Shown here in pieces: positions 38,085-51,736 of a stretch of 64,000 nt of DNA (position 1 is the first letter of the stretch; every line of letters begins with the position of its first letter). Under the pieces are notes generated by a model, which was not told where the DNA came from, did no database searches, and worked only from the letters and a program-made list of their open reading frames with translations. Both the position numbers and the translations under genes were made by a program. Origin of the DNA: Accumulibacter sp. (GTDB lineage: Bacteria > Pseudomonadota > Gammaproteobacteria > Burkholderiales > Rhodocyclaceae); the NCBI RefSeq assembly GCF_029255285.1, contig NZ_JAPUVI010000073.1, positions 30,503 to 94,502 of the forward strand, written 5' to 3'.

Positions 38085-39767
38085 TCAGGGCTCTAAGACA
38101 TAGGTGCCCGGCGCCGGATCCATCGGGCGGTGAGCCGCGCTGCCGAGAGCCTTCGGTGCCTCCACGAGGTTACCCGAGCGGTCGTTCAGCCAGACGATCC
38201 ATCTTTCCCACCAGCTACCGGAATTCCGGGTCGCGCCGGCCAGCCATGTGTCGGCATCGGCGACGCGTGCCGGGTTGGTGAAGTACACCGACCGTTTGTT
38301 GCCCGGCGGATTGATCATGGCCTGAATGTGACCACTGTTGCTGAGCACGAACTCGCACTTGCCGCCGAAGAACATCGACGATTCGTAGCAGCTCTTCCAA
38401 GGCGTGATGTGATCCGTGTCGCCAGCCAGCGCGAAGAGGTCGCAATCGACCTTCTTGAGATCGACGGGAATGCCGCCGGCCTGGAACTCGCCCGGATGAG
38501 CGAGCCACTTGTTGGCCACGATGTCCATCAACTCCGTGTGGAAGCGTGAGGTCAAGCGGGTGTTGTCGCAGTTCCAGTAGAGAAGATCGAAGGCTGGCGG
38601 CTTGTTGCCCATCAGATAGTTATTGACCCAGTAGTTCCACACCAGATCGTTGGGGCGCAACCAGGCGAACATGCGCGACATTTCCTTGCCGTCCAGGACA
38701 CCCTTCTTGGCCGTATGCTTGCGCGCCTTCTTGAGCAGCCCCTCGGTGGCCATCATACCCATCACCGAATCGCTCGGCATGTAAAGAATGGTCACGTTCA
38801 AGGTGAACGAATTGACCAGGCGCTCCCCGCGGGCCGCCATCTGCGCCAGCATCACGGAACCGATGATGCCGCCGGCGCAGCCACCCCAGAGATTGCAGTC
38901 TTTGGCACCCGTGATCTCGAGGGCAGCCAGCAGCGCTTCGCGAGCCGAGCCGGCATAGGTGTCGAATCCCCAGTCGGCGTGCTCCGGCCTGGGATTGCGC
39001 CAGCTGATGATGAACACTTGTTTGCCCTGTTGAAGCAGGTAACGCACCATGCTTTTCTCGGGATTGATGTCCATGATGTAGTACTTGTTGATCGGAGGCG
39101 GAATCATGAAGAACGGGCGCTCGTGCACCTGCGCGGCCAGTGGCTTGTATTGAATCAACTCCACCAGATCGTTGCGGAACACCACCACACCCTCGGTCGT
39201 GGCCAGATTCTCGCCCACCTTGAAAGCCGTCTTGTCGACCATGCTCGGCATGCCGCCCTCATTGACGAGATCGTGCAGCATGTTGGTCATGCCCTTCTTG
39301 ATGCTCCCGCCACCGGTCTCCAGCATGCGCTTCATGGCGGCCGGATTGGCCAAGCTATTGGTCGGGGAAAAGGCATCGACGAACAGCGAGACGAAGAAAC
39401 GGGCCCGTTCGCGGTCCATCTCGTCGACCTTGAGGTCGTCGACCACGGATTGCCAGTATTTGCTATTGGCCAGATAAGCCTGCATCATCCGCCGATGGAT
39501 TGGATTCTCGGTCCAACTGGGATCGGCGAAACGACGGTCGGATTTATCGGGTGCCAACGTCGACTTGCCCGTGAAAACCTTGAACATCTCGCCCATCAAC
39601 GACGCCTGATGCTTGAACAGCGTGATCGGATCACGAATCGGTGCACCCAGCACCGCCTTCAGCGTTTCCTTGAAATCCCGACTTTCGAAGCCGAGTACCG
39701 GTGGCACCCAGCCGATGTCTTCCATTTGCGCTTCCATGACCTTTTCCGACCTGGCAACCTTACTCAT
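38085..39767 (-). CDS. phaC: Polyhydroxyalkanoate synthase
   Basis: The 560-residue synthase has the lipase-like box GGCAGG (in NLWGGCAGGIIG) with the catalytic cysteine. Its aspartate is in LAGDTDHITPW and its histidine in NSGHIQAMINPP. Other conserved stretches are MIPPPINKYYIMD and FIISWRNP. It polymerises (R)-3-hydroxyacyl-CoA on the granule surface. Size and the neighbouring phaZ suggest a single-subunit class I or II enzyme; chain-length preference cannot be read here. The start at 39767 has GAAGGGAAA upstream. It lies 24 bp after the acyl-CoA ligase gene. Confidence 0.93.
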   Translation of the reverse strand: MSKVARSEKVMEAQMEDIGWVPPVLGFESRDFKETLKAVLGAPIRDPITLFKHQASLMGEMFKVFTGKSTLAPDKSDRRFADPSWTENPIHRRMMQAYLANSKYWQSVVDDLKVDEMDRERARFFVSLFVDAFSPTNSLANPAAMKRMLETGGGSIKKGMTNMLHDLVNEGGMPSMVDKTAFKVGENLATTEGVVVFRNDLVELIQYKPLAAQVHERPFFMIPPPINKYYIMDINPEKSMVRYLLQQGKQVFIISWRNPRPEHADWGFDTYAGSAREALLAALEITGAKDCNLWGGCAGGIIGSVMLAQMAARGERLVNSFTLNVTILYMPSDSVMGMMATEGLLKKARKHTAKKGVLDGKEMSRMFAWLRPNDLVWNYWVNNYLMGNKPPAFDLLYWNCDNTRLTSRFHTELMDIVANKWLAHPGEFQAGGIPVDLKKVDCDLFALAGDTDHITPWKSCYESSMFFGGKCEFVLSNSGHIQAMINPPGNKRSVYFTNPARVADADTWLAGATRNSGSWWERWIVWLNDRSGNLVEAPKALGSAAHRPMDPAPGTYVLEP

Positions 39768-39791
39768 GGTATTTCCCTTCCCGTAAAGTTT

Positions 39792-41483
39792 CTAATTACC
39801 ACCTGGAGTCCGACCCGTCCGAGCGTGCCCTGAGGCAAGACCCAATCCGTTGCGGTGCGTTTCGCCCTGCGCGGGCAATTGATAATCCTGATACCGTTGC
39901 CTGAGAGTGACTTTCGACAGCTTGCCGGTGGCCGTCAGCGGCAAACTGTCGACGAATTGCACATCGTCCGGCACCCACCACCTGGCCACTTTGCCCTCGA
40001 ACCAGGCGAGAAGCTCTTCCTTGTCCACACTCTTTCCGGCGCGCCGTACGGCGAGCAGCAGCGGCCGCTCACCCCACTTGGCACTGGCCACTCCGATGAC
40101 GGCCGCCATCGCCACCGCTGGATGAAGCGTCGCGATGTTCTCCAGTTCGATCGAACTGATCCACTCGCCACCGCTCTTGATCATGTCCTTCGACCGATCG
40201 GTGATCTTTAGATAACCGTCGCCGTCGATCGTTGCGATGTCACCGGTCGGGAACCAGCCGTCGACCAGGGCCGACGTGTCGCCCCGGAAGTAGGTATCGA
40301 CAACCGCCAGTCCACGCACCTGCAGTTCGCCGACCGATTTTCCATCGCAAGCCAGTTCCTCGCCGTGCTGGCCGATCAGGCGCAGGTCGATACCAAACAG
40401 CGGCCGGCCATGATTGGTCCTGAAAGCCAGACGCTCTTCCTCGCTCAAAGTCGCGTGCTTGCGCTTGAACGTGGTCAGCGTCCCGACCGGGCTCAGCTCG
40501 GTCATTCCCCAGCCAGGCAGCGCTTCGACACCGTAGTCCTGCGACAGGGTACGGATGATGGAGAAGGGGCAAGCCGAACCGCCGACCAGAAAACGCCGCA
40601 AGCTGCTCAAACGTAACCCACCCGCCTGCATGTAGTCGATCAGTCCTTGCCAGACCGTGGGCACAGCGCCGGCAAAGGTCACTCCCTCGGCCTCGAAGAG
40701 CCGGTACAGACTCTCGCCGTCCGTATTCATGCCGGCCAGCACCAGCTTGGCGCCGACCATCGGGCAGGTATACGGAAGACCCCAGCCGTTGGCGTGGAAC
40801 ATGGGAACGATCGGGCACACGACTTCGCTCGTCGAAATCGACAGCGCGTCCGGCAATGCCGTGGTCAGGCTATGCAGCAGGGTCGTGCGGTGCGAGAACA
40901 GTACTCCCTTGGGGTGGCCGGTCGTACCCGACGTGTAACACAACTGGCTGGCGGTGTTTTCGTCGAAAGAAGGCCATGCGAAGACGCCTGGGCGACTCTC
41001 GAGCAGGGCCTCATAGGAACGCGCAAACGGCGTCTGCTCGGGAATCCGGTCGGCTTCGACGAGCGCGATCCAGTGTTTCACCGTCGGGCAGCGCGGCCGA
41101 AGCTCAGCCACCAAAGGTGCGAAGGTGGCGTCGAAGAACAGCGCCACATCCTCGGCATGATTGATGATGAAGACGATCTGCTCGTGAAACAGACGTGGGT
41201 TGATGGTGTGACAGACCGAGCCGACGCCGGGGATGGCGTAGTAAAGCTCCAGATGCCGATAGGTATTCCAGGCGAGTGTGGCGACACAGGCGCCGCCACC
41301 CAGCTTCATGGTAACCAATGCCTCGGCCGCCTGCCGCGCACGCCGAGCGAGATCGCGGTAAGTGTAACGATGAACCGGACCTTCCACTGTCCGCGTAACG
41401 ACTTCTTCGTCGCCGTGGTACTTCTCCGCGTGCATCAGCAGGCGGGAAATCATCAGCGGCTGTTTCATCATCTGTGCAAGCAC
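39792..41483 (-). CDS. alkK: AlkK-like medium/long-chain fatty-acid-CoA ligase
   Basis: The 563-residue AMP-forming synthetase has the P-loop YTSGTTGHPKGVLFSHR, GWGMTELSPVGT, WFPTGDIATID and the C-terminal lysine motif LPLTATGKLSK. Its N-terminus, LAQMMKQPLMISRLLMHAEKYHG, aligns with AlkK from alkane degraders, which supports the GTG start at 41483. No clear ribosome site is seen there; an ATG four codons later is an alternative. It activates free fatty acids to CoA esters. Its place next to phaC suggests it supplies or recycles PHA monomers. Confidence 0.9.
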   Translation of the reverse strand: MLAQMMKQPLMISRLLMHAEKYHGDEEVVTRTVEGPVHRYTYRDLARRARQAAEALVTMKLGGGACVATLAWNTYRHLELYYAIPGVGSVCHTINPRLFHEQIVFIINHAEDVALFFDATFAPLVAELRPRCPTVKHWIALVEADRIPEQTPFARSYEALLESRPGVFAWPSFDENTASQLCYTSGTTGHPKGVLFSHRTTLLHSLTTALPDALSISTSEVVCPIVPMFHANGWGLPYTCPMVGAKLVLAGMNTDGESLYRLFEAEGVTFAGAVPTVWQGLIDYMQAGGLRLSSLRRFLVGGSACPFSIIRTLSQDYGVEALPGWGMTELSPVGTLTTFKRKHATLSEEERLAFRTNHGRPLFGIDLRLIGQHGEELACDGKSVGELQVRGLAVVDTYFRGDTSALVDGWFPTGDIATIDGDGYLKITDRSKDMIKSGGEWISSIELENIATLHPAVAMAAVIGVASAKWGERPLLLAVRRAGKSVDKEELLAWFEGKVARWWVPDDVQFVDSLPLTATGKLSKVTLRQRYQDYQLPAQGETHRNGLGLASGHARTGRTPGGN

Positions 41484-41540
41484 GTCAGTGTCGTCCGGTT
41501 CGATTGTCGCGTCACGAAATATCGAGTTCTGTCTGAACAG

Positions 41541-41954
41541 TCAGGACAGGCTCACCACCGCGTCGCCAGCGATCCTGACTTCGCCGTCCTGATTGGCGGT
41601 CTGGATCTCCAGCTTGGCACGGCGCTCGCCGTCCTGCTCAAACACTTCCACCACCCGTCCGCTGCAGGTGATTCGATCGCCGAGGTTGGTGATGCCGAGG
41701 AAGCGCACGGACCACTGGCGCAACTGCGATTGCGGCAGCCAGTTGGTCAGCAGTCTGCCCAGCCAGGCCATGCCCAGCATGCCATGCGCGAAGACGTCGG
41801 GCATCCCCGCCTTGCGGGCGAAATCGATGTCGATGTGAATCGGGTTGTGGTCGCCGGACGCTCCGGCAAACAGGGCCAGCGTGGTGCGGTTGACCGGCGG
41901 CAGTTTGACTTCTGGCAGTACATCGCCAACATTGATCGCTTTTTGTTCGGGCAT
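41541..41954 (-). CDS. MaoC-like (R)-specific hydratase, catalytic hot-dog subunit
   Basis: The 137-residue hot-dog protein has the hydratase 2 motif in ASGDHNPIHIDIDFA: aspartate and histidine four residues apart, the catalytic pair of (R)-specific enoyl-CoA hydratases. The conserved AHGMLGMAWLG follows. It is 12 bp downstream of a second hot-dog gene that lacks these residues, so the two probably form a HadAB-like heterodimer. It could interconvert enoyl-CoA and (R)-3-hydroxyacyl-CoA, the monomer used by PhaC. The start at 41954 follows GAGGAGAT. Confidence 0.82.
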   Translation of the reverse strand: MPEQKAINVGDVLPEVKLPPVNRTTLALFAGASGDHNPIHIDIDFARKAGMPDVFAHGMLGMAWLGRLLTNWLPQSQLRQWSVRFLGITNLGDRITCSGRVVEVFEQDGERRAKLEIQTANQDGEVRIAGDAVVSLS

Positions 41955-41966
41955 TTCAGTATCTCC

Positions 41967-42407
41967 TCAATTGCGCACAACGATTACGCTGCGGAACTCG
42001 GCTGCCAACTCGCCACTGGCATCGGTAACCGTCGAGTCGCGAACGATGAACTCGAGGGCACCGTTCTTCTTGTCGTAAATGTCGGAGATCGTCGCACGCA
42101 CGGTCACCGAGTCGCCGGCGCAGACCGGCTTGTAGTAGGTGTATCCCTGCTCACCGTGCAGAATTCGTCCGAGCGGCACGCCCATTTTGGCCAGCGTGCT
42201 GAACAACTCGTTCGAATCGAGGTCGGCCGCCAGCAGGAAGGTCGGCGGCACGGGCAGGTCGCGGTAGCCTGCCGCTTGCGCGGCTGCCTGATCAAGGTAG
42301 ATCGGATTGCTTTCCCCGATCGCCTGTGCAAAGAACTTCAACCGTCCGCGTTCGATATCGAAGCGTACTTCCGGTCCCGTGTAGCCAATCCACTTCTTGT
42401 CAATCAT
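41967..42407 (-). CDS. FAS1-like dehydratase, non-catalytic hot-dog subunit (HadA-like)
   Basis: The 146-residue protein begins MIDKKWIGYTGPEVRFDIERG and contains HGEQGYTYYKPVCAGDSVTV, typical of the MaoC N-terminal/FAS1-like dehydratase family. Where the catalytic motif should be it reads GESNPIYLD, so Asp and His are replaced by Glu and Tyr, as in HadA-type partner subunits. It is therefore likely to bind substrate and pair with the catalytic protein encoded 12 bp downstream. The start at 42407 follows GGGAGG; nine further codons upstream are open. Confidence 0.8.
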   Translation of the reverse strand: MIDKKWIGYTGPEVRFDIERGRLKFFAQAIGESNPIYLDQAAAQAAGYRDLPVPPTFLLAADLDSNELFSTLAKMGVPLGRILHGEQGYTYYKPVCAGDSVTVRATISDIYDKKNGALEFIVRDSTVTDASGELAAEFRSVIVVRN

Positions 42408-42587
42408 CGTGCCTCCCAAGTTCGACGTCATCATGAGACGAGATGTGCGGCGTCAGTTGCCTGAACTCACCGCGACGCATTTGTTACCGCCAACGCTGCG
42501 CATGCTAGACAAAACACTACTTTCACACCATTGCGCTGCACGCCTAAAAATTGCAGAATCTGCCAAACAACTCGAGGGGTATTCGTC

Positions 42588-43662: not shown

Positions 43663-44868
43663 TCAGACTCGCTCGAGCAGCATGGCGATCCCCTGTCCGA
43701 CACCGATGCACATCGTACACAGCGCATAGCGACCGCCACGCCGCTGCAGTTCACAGGTTGCCGTCGTCGCCAGTCGCGCACCGCTCATCCCCAAGGGGTG
43801 GCCCATGGCGATCGCACCGCCGTTCGGGTTGACGTGCGCCGCGTCGTCAGGCAAACCCAACTGCCGCAAGACGGCCAGCGCCTGAGCGGCGAACGCCTCG
43901 TTCAACTCGATCAGATCGACGTCTGCCAGGTCGATCGCCAAGCGCTGCAACAGCTTGCGCGTCGCCGGTGCCGGGCCGATACCCATGATGCGCGGCGCCA
44001 CGCCGGCGACCGCCGTGCCGACGATACGCGCCCGGGGTACCAGGCCATGGCGGGCCGCCGCGGCCTCACTGGCGATGATCAAGGCACAGGCTCCGTCGTT
44101 GACGCCGGACGCGTTGCCGGCGGTTACCGCACCACCCTTCCTGACCACTCCCTGCAGGGCGGCCAGCGCCTCCAGCGTGACGTCCGGGCGCGCATGCTCG
44201 TCACGCAGGAAACGCTTGGGCTCTCCCTTTGGCTGGGGAAGATCTACCGCTATGAGTTCGTCGGCGAATCGTCCGGCGGCATCGGCCGCCGCCCAGCGCT
44301 GTTGGCTACGCCAAGCGAAGGCGTCCTGGTCCGCCCGCTCGATGGCGAACTCGGCAGCCACGTTCTCAGCCGTTTCCGGCATCGAATCGATACCGTAGGC
44401 GGCCTTCATCTTCGGGTTGACGAATCGCCAGCCGATGGTCGTGTCGAACACCTCGACACTGCGCTGAAACGGCGTGCTCGCTTTGCCCATGACGAAGGGT
44501 GCGCGCGACATGCTCTCGACGCCACCGGCAATCATCAGCTCGGCCTCCGCACTGCGAATGGCCCGCGCGGCCTGGGCAATCGCGTCGAGCCCCGAGCCAC
44601 AGAGGCGGTTGATCGTCGTTCCCCCGACCTCGACCGGCAGCCCGGCAAGCAGCGCCGCCATGCGAGCGACGTTGCGGTTGTCCTCTCCCGCCTGGTTGGC
44701 ACAGCCGTAGATCACGTCGTCGATCTGACCCCAGGCAACCCCCGGGTTTCGCTCGATGAGCGCCTTGATCGGCAGCGCCGCCAGGTCGTCTGGGCGAAGG
44801 GCAGCCAGGCTTCCCCCGTAGCGACCGATAGGCGTGCGCAGCGCATCGCAAATGAAGGCCTCAGCCAT
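43663..44868 (-). CDS. paaJ: 3-Oxoadipyl-CoA / 3-oxo-5,6-dehydrosuberyl-CoA thiolase
   Basis: The 401-residue thiolase has the cysteine motif [34 protein letters not shown] and [28 protein letters not shown] at the N-terminus is typical of PaaJ/PcaF thiolases. In phenylacetate breakdown it cleaves both the C8 and C6 3-oxo intermediates to acetyl-CoA and succinyl-CoA. The ATG at 44868 overlaps the end of paaK by eight bases, so the two are coupled. Confidence 0.9.
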
Positions 44869-46186
44869 CGATCCGCCTGTTGTCGATGACCCGCTTCGCC
44901 TTGCCAACGAGGGTGCGCGGAATGGAGTTTGGCTGCAGTACGCTGACCTTGGCCGAGACGCCGATGAGGGACTTGATCGTCGTCTGCAAGCGTCGCGCCG
45001 TGGCCTGGACTTCGGCCGCCGGCACCGCCGCCGCAACGTTCGCCTGCAACTCGCACATCACTTCGATCTGATCCAGGATTCCCTCACGCGACACGACGAT
45101 CTGATACTGACCGGACAGCTTGTCGTCGCGCAGGATCAGTTCCTCGATCTGGGTCGGGAAAACGTTGACGCCGCGAATGATCAGCATGTCGTCCGAGCGA
45201 CCGACGATTTTGGCCAATCGGCGGAAGGAGCGTGCCGTCGGCGGCAGCAGACGGGTCAGGTCGCGCGTCCGGTAACGGATGACCGGGAAGGCTTCCTTGG
45301 TCAGCGAAGTGAATACCAGCTCGCCTTCCTCACCGTCGGCACAGACTTCCCCGGTCTCCGGATTGATGATTTCGGGGTAGAAGTGGTCTTCCCAGATGAC
45401 CGGGCCGTCCTTCGTTTCGATGCACTCGTTGGCGACACCGGGACCCATGACCTCCGACAGACCGTAAATGTCGACCGCGTCGATTCCCATCTTGGCTTCG
45501 ATCTCGCGACGCATTTCATTGGTCCACGGCTCGGCACCGAAAATGCCCACCTTGAGCGAGCAGTCGCGGGCGTCCAGGCCCTGATTGGCAAATTCCTCGG
45601 CAATCACCAGCATGTACGAGGGCGTCACCATGATGATGTCCGGCTTGAAATCCTGGATGATCTGGACCTGCTTTTCGGTGTTGCCGCCCGACATCGGGAT
45701 CACCGTGCAGCCCAGGCGCTCGGCGCCGTAATGGGCGCCCAAACCGCCCGTAAACAGTCCGTAGCCGTAGGTCACCTGGACGATGTCGCCCGCGCGCCCG
45801 CCCGAGGCACGAATCGAACGTGCGACGATGTCGGCCCAGGTGTCGATGTCGCGGCGCGTGTAACCCACGACAACCGGCTTGCCCGTCGTACCCGACGACG
45901 CATGGACGCGTACCACCTGCTCGCGCGGCACCGCAAACAGGCCGAAGGGGTAGTTGTCGCGCAAGTCGGTCTTGGTGGTGAAAGGAAACTTCGCCAGATC
46001 CTCGAGCTGATGCAGGTCGTCCGGATGAACGCCGGCGGCGGCAAACGTCCGCTGGTAATGGGGAACGTTGTCGTAGGCGTGTTTCAGCGACCATTTCAAA
46101 CGCTGCAACTGCAGTGCGGCAATCTCATCGCGGCTGGCGCGCTCGATAGGCTCCAGTTCACCTGGCTGGGGAAACCTCACGGGCAT
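44861..46186 (-). CDS. paaK: Phenylacetate-CoA ligase
   Basis: The 441-residue AMP-forming ligase has the P-loop [33 protein letters not shown], and [11 protein letters not shown], all typical of PaaK. It makes phenylacetyl-CoA from phenylacetate, ATP and CoA, the first step of the hybrid aerobic pathway. A strong AAAAGGAGG ribosome site precedes the ATG at 46186. It sits between paaG and paaJ on the minus strand. Confidence 0.95.
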
Positions 46187-46323: not shown

Positions 46324-47115
46324 TCATTCGCCAGTGTAGCGTGGCGCGCGCTTTTCCATGAAAGCGTTGACACCCTCTCGGTAATCGCGGCTGTGCCCCA
46401 ATTCGCGCATGTAGTCGCGTTCCAGGTCCAACTGCTGTTCGAGCGTATTCGTGTGACTGGCACGAATCGCTTGCCGCGTACGTACCAGAGCCTTGGTCGG
46501 CGCGAGCGCCAGTTGTGCGGCCAGCCGGTCGACCGACGCCGCAAACTCGGCATCGTCGACACAAGCCCAGATCAGGCCCCAGGCGGCTGCCTGCTCGGCG
46601 CTCAGCTTGTCGCCGAGCAGCGCCAGTCCCATGGCCCGGGCAACACCGACGCGCTGCGGCAGAACAAAGCTGCCGCCGGTGTCCGGAATCAGGCCAATCT
46701 TGCTGAACGACTGGATGAAACTGGCCGAGCGACTGGCGATGACGAGATCGCAGGCCAGCGCCAGATTCGCTCCGGCACCGGCGGCAACGCCGTTGACCGC
46801 GCAGATGGTCGGCATTTCCAGGTTCTGAAGCGCCAGAACCAAGGGCTTGTAATTGTTTTCGACACTGGCGCCCAAATCGACCGGCTCCGCGCCAGGCAGG
46901 ACGGAACGATCGGCCAGATCCTGGCCGGCGCAGAAGCCTCGCCCGGCGCCACCGAGCACCAGAACGCGGGCGGTCGGGTCGCTACGCAGTTGTTCCAGCG
47001 CTACCCGCACTTCCGCGTGCATCTGTTCGGTAAAGCTGTTGAGGCGGTCCGGCCGATTCAGGGTGAGGCGTGCCACCCCGTCTACTACCGAAAAGAGAAT
47101 GGTCTCGAAAGCCAT
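46324..47115 (-). CDS. paaG: 1,2-Epoxyphenylacetyl-CoA isomerase, crotonase family
   Basis: The 263-residue crotonase-fold protein has RGFCAGQDLADR, the oxyanion-hole segment NGVAAGAGANLALACD, and GLIPDTGGSFVLPQRVG. In the last stretch an aspartate takes the position of the second hydratase glutamate, as in PaaG isomerases. It converts the ring-epoxide of phenylacetyl-CoA to the oxepin. It is 262 bp downstream of paaN and 137 bp upstream of paaK, so it may be in the same transcript. Confidence 0.92.
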   Translation of the reverse strand: MAFETILFSVVDGVARLTLNRPDRLNSFTEQMHAEVRVALEQLRSDPTARVLVLGGAGRGFCAGQDLADRSVLPGAEPVDLGASVENNYKPLVLALQNLEMPTICAVNGVAAGAGANLALACDLVIASRSASFIQSFSKIGLIPDTGGSFVLPQRVGVARAMGLALLGDKLSAEQAAAWGLIWACVDDAEFAASVDRLAAQLALAPTKALVRTRQAIRASHTNTLEQQLDLERDYMRELGHSRDYREGVNAFMEKRAPRYTGE

Positions 47116-47377: not shown

Positions 47378-49042
47378 TCAAACGTGATAGCGCCGCTGGA
47401 CGACGCGGAAGCGGTTGGCGACGAAAGCCGAGTCGGCATAGCACGTCGTAGCGGCAGGATTGCCGCCCGTCGCATGGTAGTCCGAATAAGCCGCCGATTG
47501 GTTGACGTATACGCCACCGCTCAGATTGATCGACAGCGCCACCTGTGAGCGCCAAGTCGCGGCAGTCATCGCCTCGACGATCTCCGGCCTGGTCGAATAA
47601 AGGCCCACGGTCAGGGCGCCGTGCTCGCTCACCAGGCGCTCCGAAAGAGCGATGGCGCTGGCACTGTCGGCCACCCGCACGACGAAACTGATGGGCCCGA
47701 AACGTTCCTCCATGTACGACGCTTCGTTCGCCGCGTCGCATTTGAGAAGGACGGGCGTACGCACCTCAGCGGCCGGGAACTCTGCGTGCTCGATCTTGCG
47801 CGATGCCAGGACAACCTCGCCGAGCGCCGCCGCGCCCTCGATCCTGGCCAGCGTATCGGACGACTGGATCGCCCCGAGAACCGCCGTGGCGATCTCGGGT
47901 TTGGCCAACAATCCATCGATCGCCGCCCCCAGGTCGCTAGCCACCTGATCGAAGGTCTTGTGGCCCTGGTCGGTTTCGATGCCGCCGGCGGGAACGATGA
48001 TCGCTTGCGTCGTGGTACACATCTGGCCCGAGTAAAGCGCCAAGGTGAAAGCGAGATTCTTCAGCATTGCCTGATAGGCATCGGTGGACTCGATGACCAC
48101 GTTATTGACACCCGCCAGTTCGGCATAGACCTGCGCCTGCCGACAGTTGTCGATCAACCAGCGGCCAAAGCTGTTGCCGCCGGTGAAATCGACCAGCTTG
48201 ACAGCCGGGTGGGTCGCCAGCCGCTGCGTGCTGGCCCGTCCCGAGGTCACCGCGAGAGTGACCAGATTGGGATCGATGCCGTTCTCGGCCAGTACCTCGC
48301 GGATGATCGCCACCGTGATCGCGGCTGGCAGAATGGCATTGCTGTGCGGTTTGACGATCACCGCGTTGCCGGTGACCAGCGAAGCGAAAAGGCCAGGATA
48401 GGTGTTCCAGGTCGGAAAAGTACCGCAGCCGATGACCAGTGCGACGCCGCGCCCAACCACTTCGAAGTGCTTGCGCATCACCAGCGGCGGGTTCTTGCCC
48501 TGCGGTTTTTCCCAGACCGCCTCCTGCGGCACGAACGACATCTCCCGCCAGCCGTAGGCCACCGCTTCGAGGCCGCGATCCTGAGCGTGCGGTCCACCGG
48601 CCTGGAAGGCCATCATCCAGCCTTGCCCGGTGGTCAGCATGACCGCGTGGGCGATCTCGAAGCTACGTTGATTGAGCCGCTGCAAAGCTTCGAGGCAAAC
48701 GCCGGTGCGCCCGTCGGCGCCGATGCGCTGCCAGGCCGGCATCGCCGCGAGACCGGCGTCGAGCAAGGCTTGGGGATCGCATTCCGGATAGCTGATCGAC
48801 AGATCGACGCCGTAGGGCGAGTGCTCCGAAGCGACCGTCCCGGTTCGCCCAGGCTGACCCGTCAGCGGAAACTCGCCGCCACGCAGGGCGTCGATGGCTG
48901 CCTTGCCGTCCTGGAAAGCGGTCTCCCCATAGGCCTTCGGGCTCGGCATCTCGTTGTAGGGGGACCAGTACCCGCGCCTACCAATCGCTTCAAGTGCGGC
49001 ATTCAGGGTGTCGCGGTGCTTATCGAACAACGGGTGGGGCAT
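47378..49042 (-). CDS. paaN: Phenylacetate degradation aldehyde dehydrogenase PaaN
   Basis: The 554-residue aldehyde-dehydrogenase-fold protein matches PaaN: PHPLFDKHRDTLNAALEAI, GYWSPYNEMPSP, and the probable catalytic cysteine in YSGQMCTTTQAIIVP. PaaN-type proteins replace or accompany the dehydrogenase part of PaaZ, oxidising the ring-cleavage semialdehyde. The separate hydrolase domain of PaaZ is not present. The start at 49042 follows GGAGGAAGTT; the longer frame to 49231 lacks similarity and spans the promoter. It diverges from the diiron protein gene. Confidence 0.92.
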   Translation of the reverse strand: MPHPLFDKHRDTLNAALEAIGRRGYWSPYNEMPSPKAYGETAFQDGKAAIDALRGGEFPLTGQPGRTGTVASEHSPYGVDLSISYPECDPQALLDAGLAAMPAWQRIGADGRTGVCLEALQRLNQRSFEIAHAVMLTTGQGWMMAFQAGGPHAQDRGLEAVAYGWREMSFVPQEAVWEKPQGKNPPLVMRKHFEVVGRGVALVIGCGTFPTWNTYPGLFASLVTGNAVIVKPHSNAILPAAITVAIIREVLAENGIDPNLVTLAVTSGRASTQRLATHPAVKLVDFTGGNSFGRWLIDNCRQAQVYAELAGVNNVVIESTDAYQAMLKNLAFTLALYSGQMCTTTQAIIVPAGGIETDQGHKTFDQVASDLGAAIDGLLAKPEIATAVLGAIQSSDTLARIEGAAALGEVVLASRKIEHAEFPAAEVRTPVLLKCDAANEASYMEERFGPISFVVRVADSASAIALSERLVSEHGALTVGLYSTRPEIVEAMTAATWRSQVALSINLSGGVYVNQSAAYSDYHATGGNPAATTCYADSAFVANRFRVVQRRYHV

Positions 49043-49130
49043 AACTTCCTCCGCATGATTAGGACAGTACTTCTGTTCGGGCAAGACTTCCCGACCGGCG
49101 AAGCGGCCGAGCCATCCTGCTATGGTCGAG

Positions 49131-49170
49131 ACGATACAAACAACGTCGGAGACTGTCAACGCTATGTATC
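49131..49170 (-). promoter_or_regulatory. Predicted paaN promoter with flanking inverted repeat
   Basis: On the minus strand a consensus TTGACA (plus 49154-49159) and TATCGT (plus 49131-49136) are separated by 17 bp, with a start near 49125. GATACA (49133-49138) and TGTATC (49165-49170) form an inverted repeat across it, 32 bp centre to centre. A third GATACA is at 49337-49342 in the divergent promoter. A regulator may bind these, but none is identified. Confidence 0.6.
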
Positions 49171-49349
49171 CGGATTGGCCGGCGACCGCGGCCCGTCCCG
49201 AGGCCTCGCGACGACTTTCGAGAACGTCCAATTCCCCGACCTTATCAATACGATGGAGCCGCTGCTGGTGAGCGGAGAGAAGCCTGGCGGGTCGCCACAG
49301 GCGCTTCGTTCCCCGCGCCGCATTTGGCCGCTTTGCGATACAAGAAGGG

Positions 49350-49379
49350 TTGACAAACGCTCGACAGATGTAACATTAT
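49350..49379 (+). promoter_or_regulatory. Possible promoter of the diiron protein gene
   Basis: A perfect TTGACA (49350-49355) is followed by CATTAT (49374-49379) at 18 bp spacing, pointing right. The leader would be about 190 nt. The rest of this 531-bp divergent region shows no gene. Confidence 0.45.
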
Positions 49380-49573
49380 CTGCTCCAATCTGCGGTCCGG
49401 CAGACTGGCCATACGAGGTGTGACAACCTGCAGCGCCAGCTCTGGAGGCCGGTCCGGGTTTCCTGAAACCCCGACGCAGGAAGGCCTTGCTGCCGCCCGC
49501 ACGACCGACATACACCCGGCCTCACCACTACGGTGTGACGGGATCACGCAACCAACCTGAGAGGAAAGCATCG

Positions 49574-50599
49574 ATGTCGAGACACGAACGCCTGGCCGGG
49601 AAAATGGAACTCCCGACGGCCGCCGCGCAGCCCAACATTTTCCCATTGAGCTGGCACGCCCAAACCAAAAAAGTAGAGGACATCTGGGACGCGTCGCTGC
49701 GCGAAGCGTGGGATCCCAAGAAACTGCCTTGGAATACGCTCGACCTCTCCAAGTACTCGTGGGAACAGCGCGAGGCGATCGCCTACTGGTGGACCATTCT
49801 TTCCGTCTTCGACGCGTCGGCGCCACCCGTGTTTGCCGCCGCGCTGATCAAGACCTACGAGGCGCACGAGGAAGATGCGGTGCGGCGCTGTTTCTTCTCG
49901 GTGACGCGTGACGAACAGAACCATGAGCAGCTATGCGGCATGGCGATCACCAGATTGCTGGAGCATCCCGATCCGCTGACCTATGTGCCGAAAACGGAAA
50001 TCGGCCGAAAAGTCCAGAAGAACGCGCATTGGCTGTACTACAACGGCTCGCGTTACTGGGAGGGCTACAAGACGGCGGTACCCAAGTACAGCCTGGCGGT
50101 CCTCTTCAGCTCCTTCCTGATGGGCGAGATTGCGGCGGCGACGATCTTCCACCAAATGGCCGCCCAATGCACCGAACCGGTGTTCAAGGAAGCCTTCCGC
50201 AACGTCGGGCGCGACGAGGGCCGGCACATGGCGATCTGCATGTCGCTCATGGAACGTGACTATCCTAAGCTCGACGTGTCCGATCGGCCGCTCATCACCA
50301 AGCAGATCCGCGCCGGCTTCCTGTTCCTGTCCGGCGTTCTCTTCGAGCCGCCGGCAGATTTCTGGGATATTCCGGAAGACTTCATCGCCACGCAGCGCGA
50401 AGCCGAAGCCATCGCCCGTACGGCCGGTTTCCAGGTTCCCGAGTACGAAGCCAAGAAGGACAACTGGCGGAACGCGATGCTCAACCTCAAGGGCGTGCTC
50501 GACAAGTTCAACATTCCGTTCCCGGCGATTCCCGAGGTGGGGATCACCGGCGAGGAGATCCGGGACATCGACATGGAGGACATCATTCCCGTATTCTGA
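49574..50599 (+). CDS. R2-like ferritin-superfamily diiron protein, putative oxygenase component
   Basis: The 341-residue helical protein carries a diiron carboxylate ligand set in R2-like order. Aspartate 80 (VFDAS) or a nearby glutamate is first, then E114-x2-H117 (RDEQNHEQ), E185 (LMGEIAAAT) and E215-x2-H218 (RDEGRHMA). It is rich in tryptophan and tyrosine around the first helices. Its size and motif layout fit soluble diiron oxygenases and R2-type proteins, but I do not recognise it as PaaA, BoxB, a desaturase or true ribonucleotide reductase. The next gene encodes a ferredoxin-NAD(P)H reductase that could supply electrons. It diverges from paaN, suggesting a role on an aromatic or acyl-CoA substrate. 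The start at 49574 follows GAGAGGAAAG. Confidence 0.75.
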   Translation: MSRHERLAGKMELPTAAAQPNIFPLSWHAQTKKVEDIWDASLREAWDPKKLPWNTLDLSKYSWEQREAIAYWWTILSVFDASAPPVFAAALIKTYEAHEEDAVRRCFFSVTRDEQNHEQLCGMAITRLLEHPDPLTYVPKTEIGRKVQKNAHWLYYNGSRYWEGYKTAVPKYSLAVLFSSFLMGEIAAATIFHQMAAQCTEPVFKEAFRNVGRDEGRHMAICMSLMERDYPKLDVSDRPLITKQIRAGFLFLSGVLFEPPADFWDIPEDFIATQREAEAIARTAGFQVPEYEAKKDNWRNAMLNLKGVLDKFNIPFPAIPEVGITGEEIRDIDMEDIIPVF

Positions 50600-50677
50600 G
50601 GCCTCTCGGTGCCTCACTTAGCGTGGCGGCCAGGCGACTGGCCGCCACTCATGCATCCATGAAGCGCGGAACTTGAC

Positions 50678-51736
50678 ATGAAGCATATTCGTTTGCACCC
50701 GTCGGGACATGTTGTCGAATGCCAGGAGGGCAGCGCAGTCCTCGAAGCACTCGAGGCCGCCGGTTACGCCCTGCCCAATAACTGTCGTGCCGGCGCTTGC
50801 GGCGAATGCAAGGTCAAAGTGCTGAGCGGCACTTTCGACCAGGGCTTCGTCCTCGACATGGCGCTGTCGCAGCAGGAGCGCCACGAGGGCTTCGGGCTGA
50901 TGTGCATGGCCAAGCCCATTTCGGACGAAATCGTCATCGATTGGGGTACCGAGGATGCGCAGCCCAAGCTTTTTCCACCGCAGGAAAATCAGGCCTTCAT
51001 CGTCGTCGACCGGCAATGGCGCACGGCGCGTATTCTGGAACTGCGTTTTCGTCCGCTCGCCAAGCCGATGCGCTACTGGCCCGGGCAATACGTTCTGCTT
51101 GGCGACCCGGCAGCCGGCATTCCACCGCGCTCCTACTCGATAGCCAACGCGCCGCGCCCGGACGGTGAAATCTCGCTGCAGATCACGCGTGTCGACGCCG
51201 GTCTGACCAGCACCTGGGTACATGAGAATCTGACCGTCGGCCGCACGGTTTCACTGTCCGGGCCCTACGGTACCTTCATCGGCGACCCCTCGGTTGACGC
51301 GCCGGTGCTCTGCATCGCCGCCGGCTCGGGACTGGCGCCGGTACTCGCTTTGGCCGACGCGGCGTTGCGTCGCGGTTATAGCCAGCCCGTAACCCTGTTG
51401 TTTTCGGCGCGCACGACGGCCGATCTGTACGACTCGGGCTTGATGGCCTGGTGGCAGGCCAAGCACCCGGGTTTTCGCTATCTGTATACGCTTACCCGCG
51501 AAGCCCACGACGGTCTGTGTGGACGGATTCCAGAGATCCTCCCTAGCCTGTTCAAGGATCTGTCCGAGTTTTGCATATTCGTCGCCGGCAGCCCGGAATT
51601 CGTGGACGACTGCGTACGCGCCGTGAAGCTGCTTGGCGCTCGCGCCAAGATGATTCACAGCGAGGGCTACTTCCGGCAACAACGACCCCTCGTGCCACCC
51701 GCCAGCCAAATGATCTCACCGCCCGAACGCGGGTAG
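50678..51736 (+). CDS. Ferredoxin-NAD(P)H oxidoreductase, electron-transfer component
   Basis: The 352-residue protein has an N-terminal plant-type [2Fe-2S] domain (CRAGACGECKVKVLSG with a fourth cysteine in GLMCMAKP). An FAD-binding domain (RSYSIANAP) and an NAD-binding domain (CIAAGSGLAPVLALADAA, FVAGSPEFVDDC) follow. The ferredoxin-first order matches reductases of soluble methane, phenol and benzoate oxygenases; PaaE has ferredoxin last. It is 78 bp after the diiron gene on the same strand, so the pair probably works as a two-component system. The last 25 residues (FRQQRPLVPPASQM) are a short tail outside the reductase fold. Confidence 0.88.
   Translation: MKHIRLHPSGHVVECQEGSAVLEALEAAGYALPNNCRAGACGECKVKVLSGTFDQGFVLDMALSQQERHEGFGLMCMAKPISDEIVIDWGTEDAQPKLFPPQENQAFIVVDRQWRTARILELRFRPLAKPMRYWPGQYVLLGDPAAGIPPRSYSIANAPRPDGEISLQITRVDAGLTSTWVHENLTVGRTVSLSGPYGTFIGDPSVDAPVLCIAAGSGLAPVLALADAALRRGYSQPVTLLFSARTTADLYDSGLMAWWQAKHPGFRYLYTLTREAHDGLCGRIPEILPSLFKDLSEFCIFVAGSPEFVDDCVRAVKLLGARAKMIHSEGYFRQQRPLVPPASQMISPPERG

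Follow-up and report, generated by a model that had tools for sequence, protein, structure and literature searches.

Introduction

In the aerobic coenzyme A (CoA)-dependent phenylacetate pathway the aromatic ring is attacked by PaaABC(D)E, a diiron enzyme that acts as a 1,2-phenylacetyl-CoA epoxidase and draws on a separate FAD/2Fe-2S reductase. In the BoxA/BoxB system, one reductase and a diiron oxygenase epoxidise another aromatic CoA ester, benzoyl-CoA, and multi-subunit soluble diiron monooxygenases come with a further hydroxylase subunit and a small effector protein encoded alongside. Here we analyse two adjacent genes, OX and RED, in a stretch of 64,000 nucleotides from Accumulibacter sp. 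(contig NZ_JAPUVI010000073.1, positions 30,503 to 94,502; the whole stretch is called the window). We propose that the pair probably encodes an arylacetyl-CoA epoxidase with phenylacetyl-CoA as its main substrate, an activity that we infer from the genes that accompany it. OX-RED would then be a non-orthologous counterpart of PaaABC(D)E, and the nearest working analogue would be BoxA/BoxB. In the open-licence literature, searched by title and start of abstract, no description of the pair was found among the matches listed.

Results

OX and RED compared with known diiron systems

The original prediction, made from the letters of the window, had proposed a two-component diiron oxygenase of no assigned family beside phenylacetate genes. 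Both open reading frames (ORFs) lie where it had placed them (Table 1), and every residue that it named in the 341-residue OX was found, D80 included: the candidate diiron ligands are D80, E114-x2-H117, E185 and E215-x2-H218. Relatives of OX were collected by a scan of genome contigs, and the best 80 of 135 were kept (74–93% identity). All six ligands are without variation across 63 aligned relatives from the same identity range and equally so in a second set of 17 members that takes in relatives at 46–51% identity.

No Pfam or NCBIfam model scored the window's OX over its cut-off. The top Pfam profile was AurF (PF11583), named for the p-aminobenzoate N-oxygenase, yet at 22.3 bits OX stayed under the gathering cut-off of 29.6, and Rubrerythrin (PF02915) gave 20.1 bits (cut-off 22.8). 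With matches up to E 1 admitted, the AurF and Rubrerythrin profiles each matched 17 of 17 members (best E 8.9e-6 and 4e-5, respectively; some member may pass the Rubrerythrin cut-off) and the R2 model 6 of 17, whereas PF05138 (PaaA_PaaC), the profile used for PaaA and PaaC in genomes throughout, matched none of the 17, the window's OX included. An hhalign comparison of the OX profile with seven PaaA sequences returned a probability of 0.6%, and comparison of OX with NCBIfam, which we take to contain a BoxB model, matched no such model at E up to 1. A PHROGs search gave no match, and PDB searches with phmmer and with a profile yielded no convincing chain. A profile that included distant OX members matched 2 of 398 genomes of the phylum at E up to 1e-15.

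The AlphaFold2 model of OX, built from 63 sequences (mean predicted local distance difference test 82.5, predicted template modelling score 0.82), found its best, weak fold matches in R2 of ribonucleotide reductase and in R2-like ligand-binding oxidases, with a best E of 1.7e-3 and no match at E 1e-3 or below; among the 50 best matches listed, TM-scores were about 0.3–0.6 and identities 11–18%. The ligand order of OX is presumably the same as in these two proteins. At what we take to be the position of the R2 radical tyrosine, four residues after the first histidine ligand, OX has Cys121, invariant in 63 members, unlike R2. Two E-x2-H motifs and two further carboxylates on a predicted helical bundle place OX, as modelled, in the diiron ferritin-like/R2-like superfamily, in no named family that could be established. 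The claim that OX is unlike PaaA, AurF, BoxB and R2 agrees with the PaaA profile comparison, the AurF score, the lack of a BoxB match and Cys121, and the profile and fold searches suggested at the time returned no strong match to any characterised family.

RED carries Pfam domains in the order Fer2 (residues 5–80), FAD (117–200) and NAD (213–312), with cysteines C36, C41, C44 and C76, so the predicted ferredoxin-first reductase next to OX stands. The same order is found in reductases of soluble diiron monooxygenases and of the BenC type. In PaaE the ferredoxin domain comes last, one PaaE from a related locus reading FAD-NAD-Fer2, again as foreseen. The best PDB match of RED is 5ogx (E 5e-45). 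Its NCBIfam scores were 137.8 bits with the BenC model, 108.7 with MmoC and 19.2 with BoxA (cut-off 459.2), under the cut-off for every model matched.

RED directly follows OX in 80 of the 80 loci, far above chance, so that the linkage whose survey the original prediction had suggested is kept throughout. When 20 other proteins were sought beside OX in these loci (flanks of up to 8 kb per side, shorter in some), only RED proved constant, very small ORFs lying outside the survey. PaaX came next (28 loci), and PaaB, PaaC and PaaD were found in 11, 11 and 10 of the 80. Unlike PaaABC(D)E, OX is one polypeptide without constant PaaB or PaaC partners. For a Nonomuraea relative (L087), the stretch searched at E up to 1e-8 contained nothing that matched RED.

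PaaG accompanies OX with and without PaaA/PaaC

All 28 genomes available for the window's genus were searched for OX and PaaG. OX was present in 8 and PaaG over cut-off in 10, among them all 8 OX genomes (8/8 against 2/20 of the others; Fisher p 1.4e-5, left uncorrected for common descent like all p values here). In 7 of these 8 a single contig carries the two genes with no more than about 2.5 kb between them, and in G768 they sit on two contigs. The same association appeared in a sample of 300 genomes of the order. OX occurred in six, and PaaG was over cut-off in 6/6 OX genomes as against 50/294 others (p 3.4e-5); among the 251 genomes without a strong PF05138 match, PaaG was over cut-off in 4/4 with OX and 15/247 without it (p 2.4e-5).

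PaaA and PaaC were missing from part of these genomes. The PF05138 searches covered the window's genome, the genomes of the 80 loci and the order sample, and left aside G754, G759, G761, G764, G771 and G772. The window's genome, 100% complete, had no PF05138 match over cut-off, the best being two stretches at about 13 bits, and three further Accumulibacter metagenome-assembled genomes (MAGs) and a one-contig genome resemble it in keeping PaaG while PaaA/PaaC are absent by profile. Four of the six OX genomes in the order sample were without PF05138 at the thresholds used. Among the 80 OX genomes the match was strong in 57, single and weak in 5 and lacking in 18, the last group including the named isolates Azospirillum halopraeferens DSM 3675 and Tepidiphilus margaritifer DSM 15129; strict mutual exclusion of OX and PaaABC is thereby ruled out. 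In the 23 genomes without a strong match, PaaG was over cut-off in 15 and at 332–338 bits (cut-off 345) in 5; of the remaining three, one has it cut at a contig end and in two it was not found. A quick tree computed from 91 OX rows needs at least 7 changes of PaaA/PaaC status if only well supported branches are counted, and 11 on the best tree, gain and loss being indistinguishable in these counts.

In G255 (locus L094; one contig, 99% complete), PaaN-PaaG-PaaH-PaaI-PaaK-PcaF, all over cut-off, run divergently from OX-RED and the genome has no PF05138 match at 1e-7. Two genomes of one genus, G161 and G268, share a cluster of this type: PaaABCDE follows it in G268, and G161 has no PF05138 match. 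Two divergent PF05138 proteins deserve mention in their own right. One, at G237:C8:155958-156662 (72.6 bits, the matched part being interrupted by one in-frame stop), lies beside PaaG, and the other, at G730:C53:249159-249878 (127.6 bits), lies beside a PaaG-like hydratase; they are possibly yet another alternative epoxidase.

Gene order around OX

Table 1. Features of the window around OX and RED (bits: profile score).
Feature	Position	Strand	Description
OX	49574..50599	+	341 aa ferritin-like/R2-like diiron protein (by motif and model); proposed arylacetyl-CoA epoxidase component
RED	50678..51736	+	352 aa Fer2-FAD-NAD reductase; proposed electron donor of OX
PaaN/OX intergenic region	49037..49573	.	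sigma-70-like site 49350-49379 (+)
PaaN (TIGR02288)	47378..49036	-	aldehyde dehydrogenase of ring opening; 926.8 bits, cut-off 578.75
PaaG (TIGR02280)	46324..47115	-	1,2-epoxyphenylacetyl-CoA isomerase; 401.2 bits, cut-off 345.15
PaaK (TIGR02155)	44861..46186	-	phenylacetate-CoA ligase; 729.9 bits, cut-off 646.3
PcaF/PaaJ-type	43663..45036	-	3-oxoadipyl-CoA thiolase; 703.8 bits, cut-off 597
Two MaoC/FAS1-dehydratase-like proteins	41541-41954, 41967-42434	-	PF01575, PF13452 over cut-off; downstream of PcaF

As predicted, OX is divergent from paaN, and PaaN, PaaG, PaaK and PcaF lie upstream in the opposite direction. The PaaN ORF is open to 49231, its start having been estimated from the profile match, and the PcaF match begins about 56 residues into its ORF. 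The two MaoC/FAS1-dehydratase-like proteins are possible PaaN partners replacing the hydratase half of PaaZ; with a PhaC-like synthase and an AMP-binding ligase they occupy window positions 38085-42434 beside the paa genes.

With paa genes called by identity thresholds, at least one was found in the fetched flanks of 44 of the 80 loci. PaaN is divergent from OX-RED in the window and in L002, L004, L093-L095 and L097 (the Accumulibacter arrangement). In ten loci of Comamonas, Marinospirillum and Nitrincola types (L019, L022, L025, L027, L037, L048, L062, L063, L076 and L079) the order is PaaK-OX-RED-PaaA-B-C-D-E. In Azospirillum the order is PaaX-OX-RED, and transporter and homogentisate genes, often also PaaY-like ones, lie alongside; in an Azoarcus/Thauera group OX-RED stands beside argG. 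G761, G764 and G771 of the window's genus, whose OX is 70–72% identical to the window's, have another cluster type: OX-RED runs divergently from PcaF-PaaI-PaaH-PaaG-PaaN and is followed by PaaX and a PaaY-like gene, with neither PaaABCDE nor PaaK within the stretch. That the same partners recur in different orders speaks against a neighbourhood kept by inheritance alone.

More distant relatives add a further context. On a Variovorax paradoxus plasmid (L086), OX-RED, the OX about 53% identical, is accompanied by PaaN, which passes its cut-off at 624.7 bits, and by a ligase that resembles PaaK (about 35% identity) and scores below the PaaK cut-off. A CoA transferase, a thiolase, an oxidase of GlcD type and an indolepyruvate ferredoxin oxidoreductase are encoded there too. 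The order of PaaN, ligase-like gene, OX and RED is repeated on L085, a second plasmid from Variovorax. PaaABCDE is absent from the 19 kb of L086 and likewise from the L085 stretch. Because indolepyruvate ferredoxin oxidoreductase makes arylacetyl-CoA, the L086 cluster independently points to an arylacetyl-CoA substrate. These plasmids perhaps encode an aryl-CoA route on OX-RED and PaaN for indole or hydroxyphenyl compounds.

An OX 80–81% identical to the window's also occurs in MAGs labelled Desulfovibrionaceae and Polyangiaceae (L014, L018 and L021), through gene transfer or mis-binning.

An FNR/ANR-type box upstream of OX

We scanned 300 bp upstream of OX in 88 loci (77 of the 80, having at least 150 bp upstream, and 11 others) with what we take to be the FNR/ANR consensus. 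A perfect box was found in 22/88 loci as against 0/440 approximately dinucleotide-preserving shuffles, and a box with at most one mismatch in 35/88 against 1/440, while 19 control palindromes with permuted half-sites gave no perfect and at most 4 one-mismatch sites. Among other called genes of the same loci, 21 of 1012 upstream regions had a perfect box; counted by place, 1.21 Mb contained 15 perfect sites beyond the regions upstream of OX, and 10 of these 15 fall at a single place in Azospirillum loci. The OX boxes with distinct flanks number 19. In ten Azospirillum loci a second perfect box, for example at L034:16335, lies close to a gene for a PaaY-like hexapeptide protein and to the gene divergent from it. 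Two Marinospirillum loci (L063:10295 and L076:10291) have an FNR-type box also between RED and PaaA, as if oxygen switched both oxygenases.

The box was commoner beside PaaA/PaaC (30/56 against 4/21, p 0.009). A tie between the two was dropped as a candidate when independent pairs on the OX tree gave a median p of 1.

Discussion

Judged by the homology of its parts, RED would take electrons from NAD(P)H and hand them, by way of FAD and 2Fe-2S, to a putative diiron site in OX formed by the six conserved ligands (D80, E114, H117, E185, E215 and H218). Reduced OX would activate O2 and epoxidise phenylacetyl-CoA, or an arylacetyl-CoA close to it, on the ring, and the epoxide would be the substrate of PaaG. 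The early guess at a phenylacetyl-CoA oxygenase is sharpened by the presence and absence of genes, the activity itself being what these patterns suggest. We propose that OX-RED is the sole recognised epoxidase candidate in the window's Accumulibacter-type genome and in several other lineages, and that where PaaABCDE is kept it would be an additional isoenzyme, often FNR/ANR-boxed and presumably used at low oxygen. The full version of this idea, a second, unrelated phenylacetyl-CoA epoxidase that is an FNR/ANR-switched low-oxygen isoenzyme and the sole enzyme in lineages such as Accumulibacter, is one we hold more tentatively, at a little short of an even chance.

Several observations weigh against the proposal. 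OX may act otherwise in the 57 genomes with a strong PaaA/PaaC match; many of the 80 OX genomes are MAGs of unstated completeness; and the p values carry no correction for common descent. Of the PaaG genomes in the order sample, 15 are without OX and also without a strong PF05138 match, a weak PF05138 protein being present in 6 of them. Within the genus, G759 has PcaF-PaaI-PaaH-PaaG-PaaN followed directly by the PaaY-like gene at a contig end, with no OX between, and is a real exception, a contig break not being the likely cause; G772 has PaaG, PaaI and PcaF and no OX in 39 kb. For 36 of the 80 loci the flanks retrieved, in some cases short ones, showed no paa gene, and in Azospirillum OX lies near homogentisate genes. 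As to regulation, the window has no box with 0–1 mismatches within 300 bp of OX (the best has 4), and the association of the box with PaaA/PaaC did not survive the comparison of independent pairs.

The closest rival is that OX-RED acts on another arylacetyl-CoA, such as a hydroxyphenylacetyl-CoA or indoleacetyl-CoA, whose product would enter the same lower route of PaaN/PaaG type, with PaaABC taking phenylacetyl-CoA where present. It would account for the many genomes in which both systems occur, sometimes in one gene row, and for the Variovorax cluster with its own ligase, CoA transferase and indolepyruvate ferredoxin oxidoreductase. We nevertheless regard it as unlikely, for PaaG is over or near cut-off in 20 of the 23 OX genomes without strong PaaA/PaaC, and L094 has PaaK and PaaI over cut-off in a genome without a PF05138 match. 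Hydroxylation of free phenylacetate or hydroxyphenylacetate towards homogentisate, for HgmA and fumarylacetoacetate hydrolase, seems very improbable: these genes occur in 12 and 14 of the 80 loci, respectively (the Azospirillum group), whereas HgmA was not found at the threshold used in the flanks of the other 68, and the window and its kin carry CoA-pathway genes instead.

We give slightly less credit still to an acyl-CoA desaturase or other oxidase that is a mere neighbour of paa genes. R2-like folds, which OX resembles, serve many activities, and the loci without a paa gene nearby would fit, as would the argG neighbourhood of the Azoarcus/Thauera group; against this stand the paa linkage in varied orders in 44 loci and the presence of PaaG in 8/8 OX genomes of the genus as opposed to 2/20 others. 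An equally slim chance attaches to the possibility that genomes without PaaABC use another unrecognised epoxidase, OX being a helper, for instance in the removal of toxic epoxide. The divergent single PF05138 protein in 5 of the 23 genomes, its position beside PaaG or a PaaG-like gene in G237 and G730, and PaaG without OX in G759 and G772 point that way, but PF05138 went unmatched in 18 of the 23 at the thresholds used, and no match in the window's genome passes the cut-off.

Non-orthologous replacement within the phenylacetate pathway has a precedent in an alternative oxepin-CoA hydrolase, as reported in PMC9007349. PaaABC-type subunits themselves appear among low-oxygen-responsive genes, with values that are positive in Bradyrhizobium and mostly negative in Burkholderia, in table excerpts that come without their column heads (PMC6515984, PMC3759415); excerpts of PMC9765128 and PMC3916325 provide context only. 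PMC13186573 reports PaaA/PaaC for each of its 825 PAL proteomes, but their occurrence in the context of the ligase was also one of the criteria by which the PALs were chosen.

Phenylacetate breakdown is recognised in genomes by the markers PaaA and PaaC. If our proposal of an arylacetyl-CoA epoxidase is true, genomes in which OX-RED replaces PaaABC would have been overlooked or judged broken, and OX-RED would fill their missing step. Phenylacetyl-CoA, presumably like benzoyl-CoA with BoxAB, would then be open to epoxidation by a single diiron protein with a single reductase, and the pair might explain how an oxygenase pathway for phenylacetate runs at low O2 in microaerophiles.
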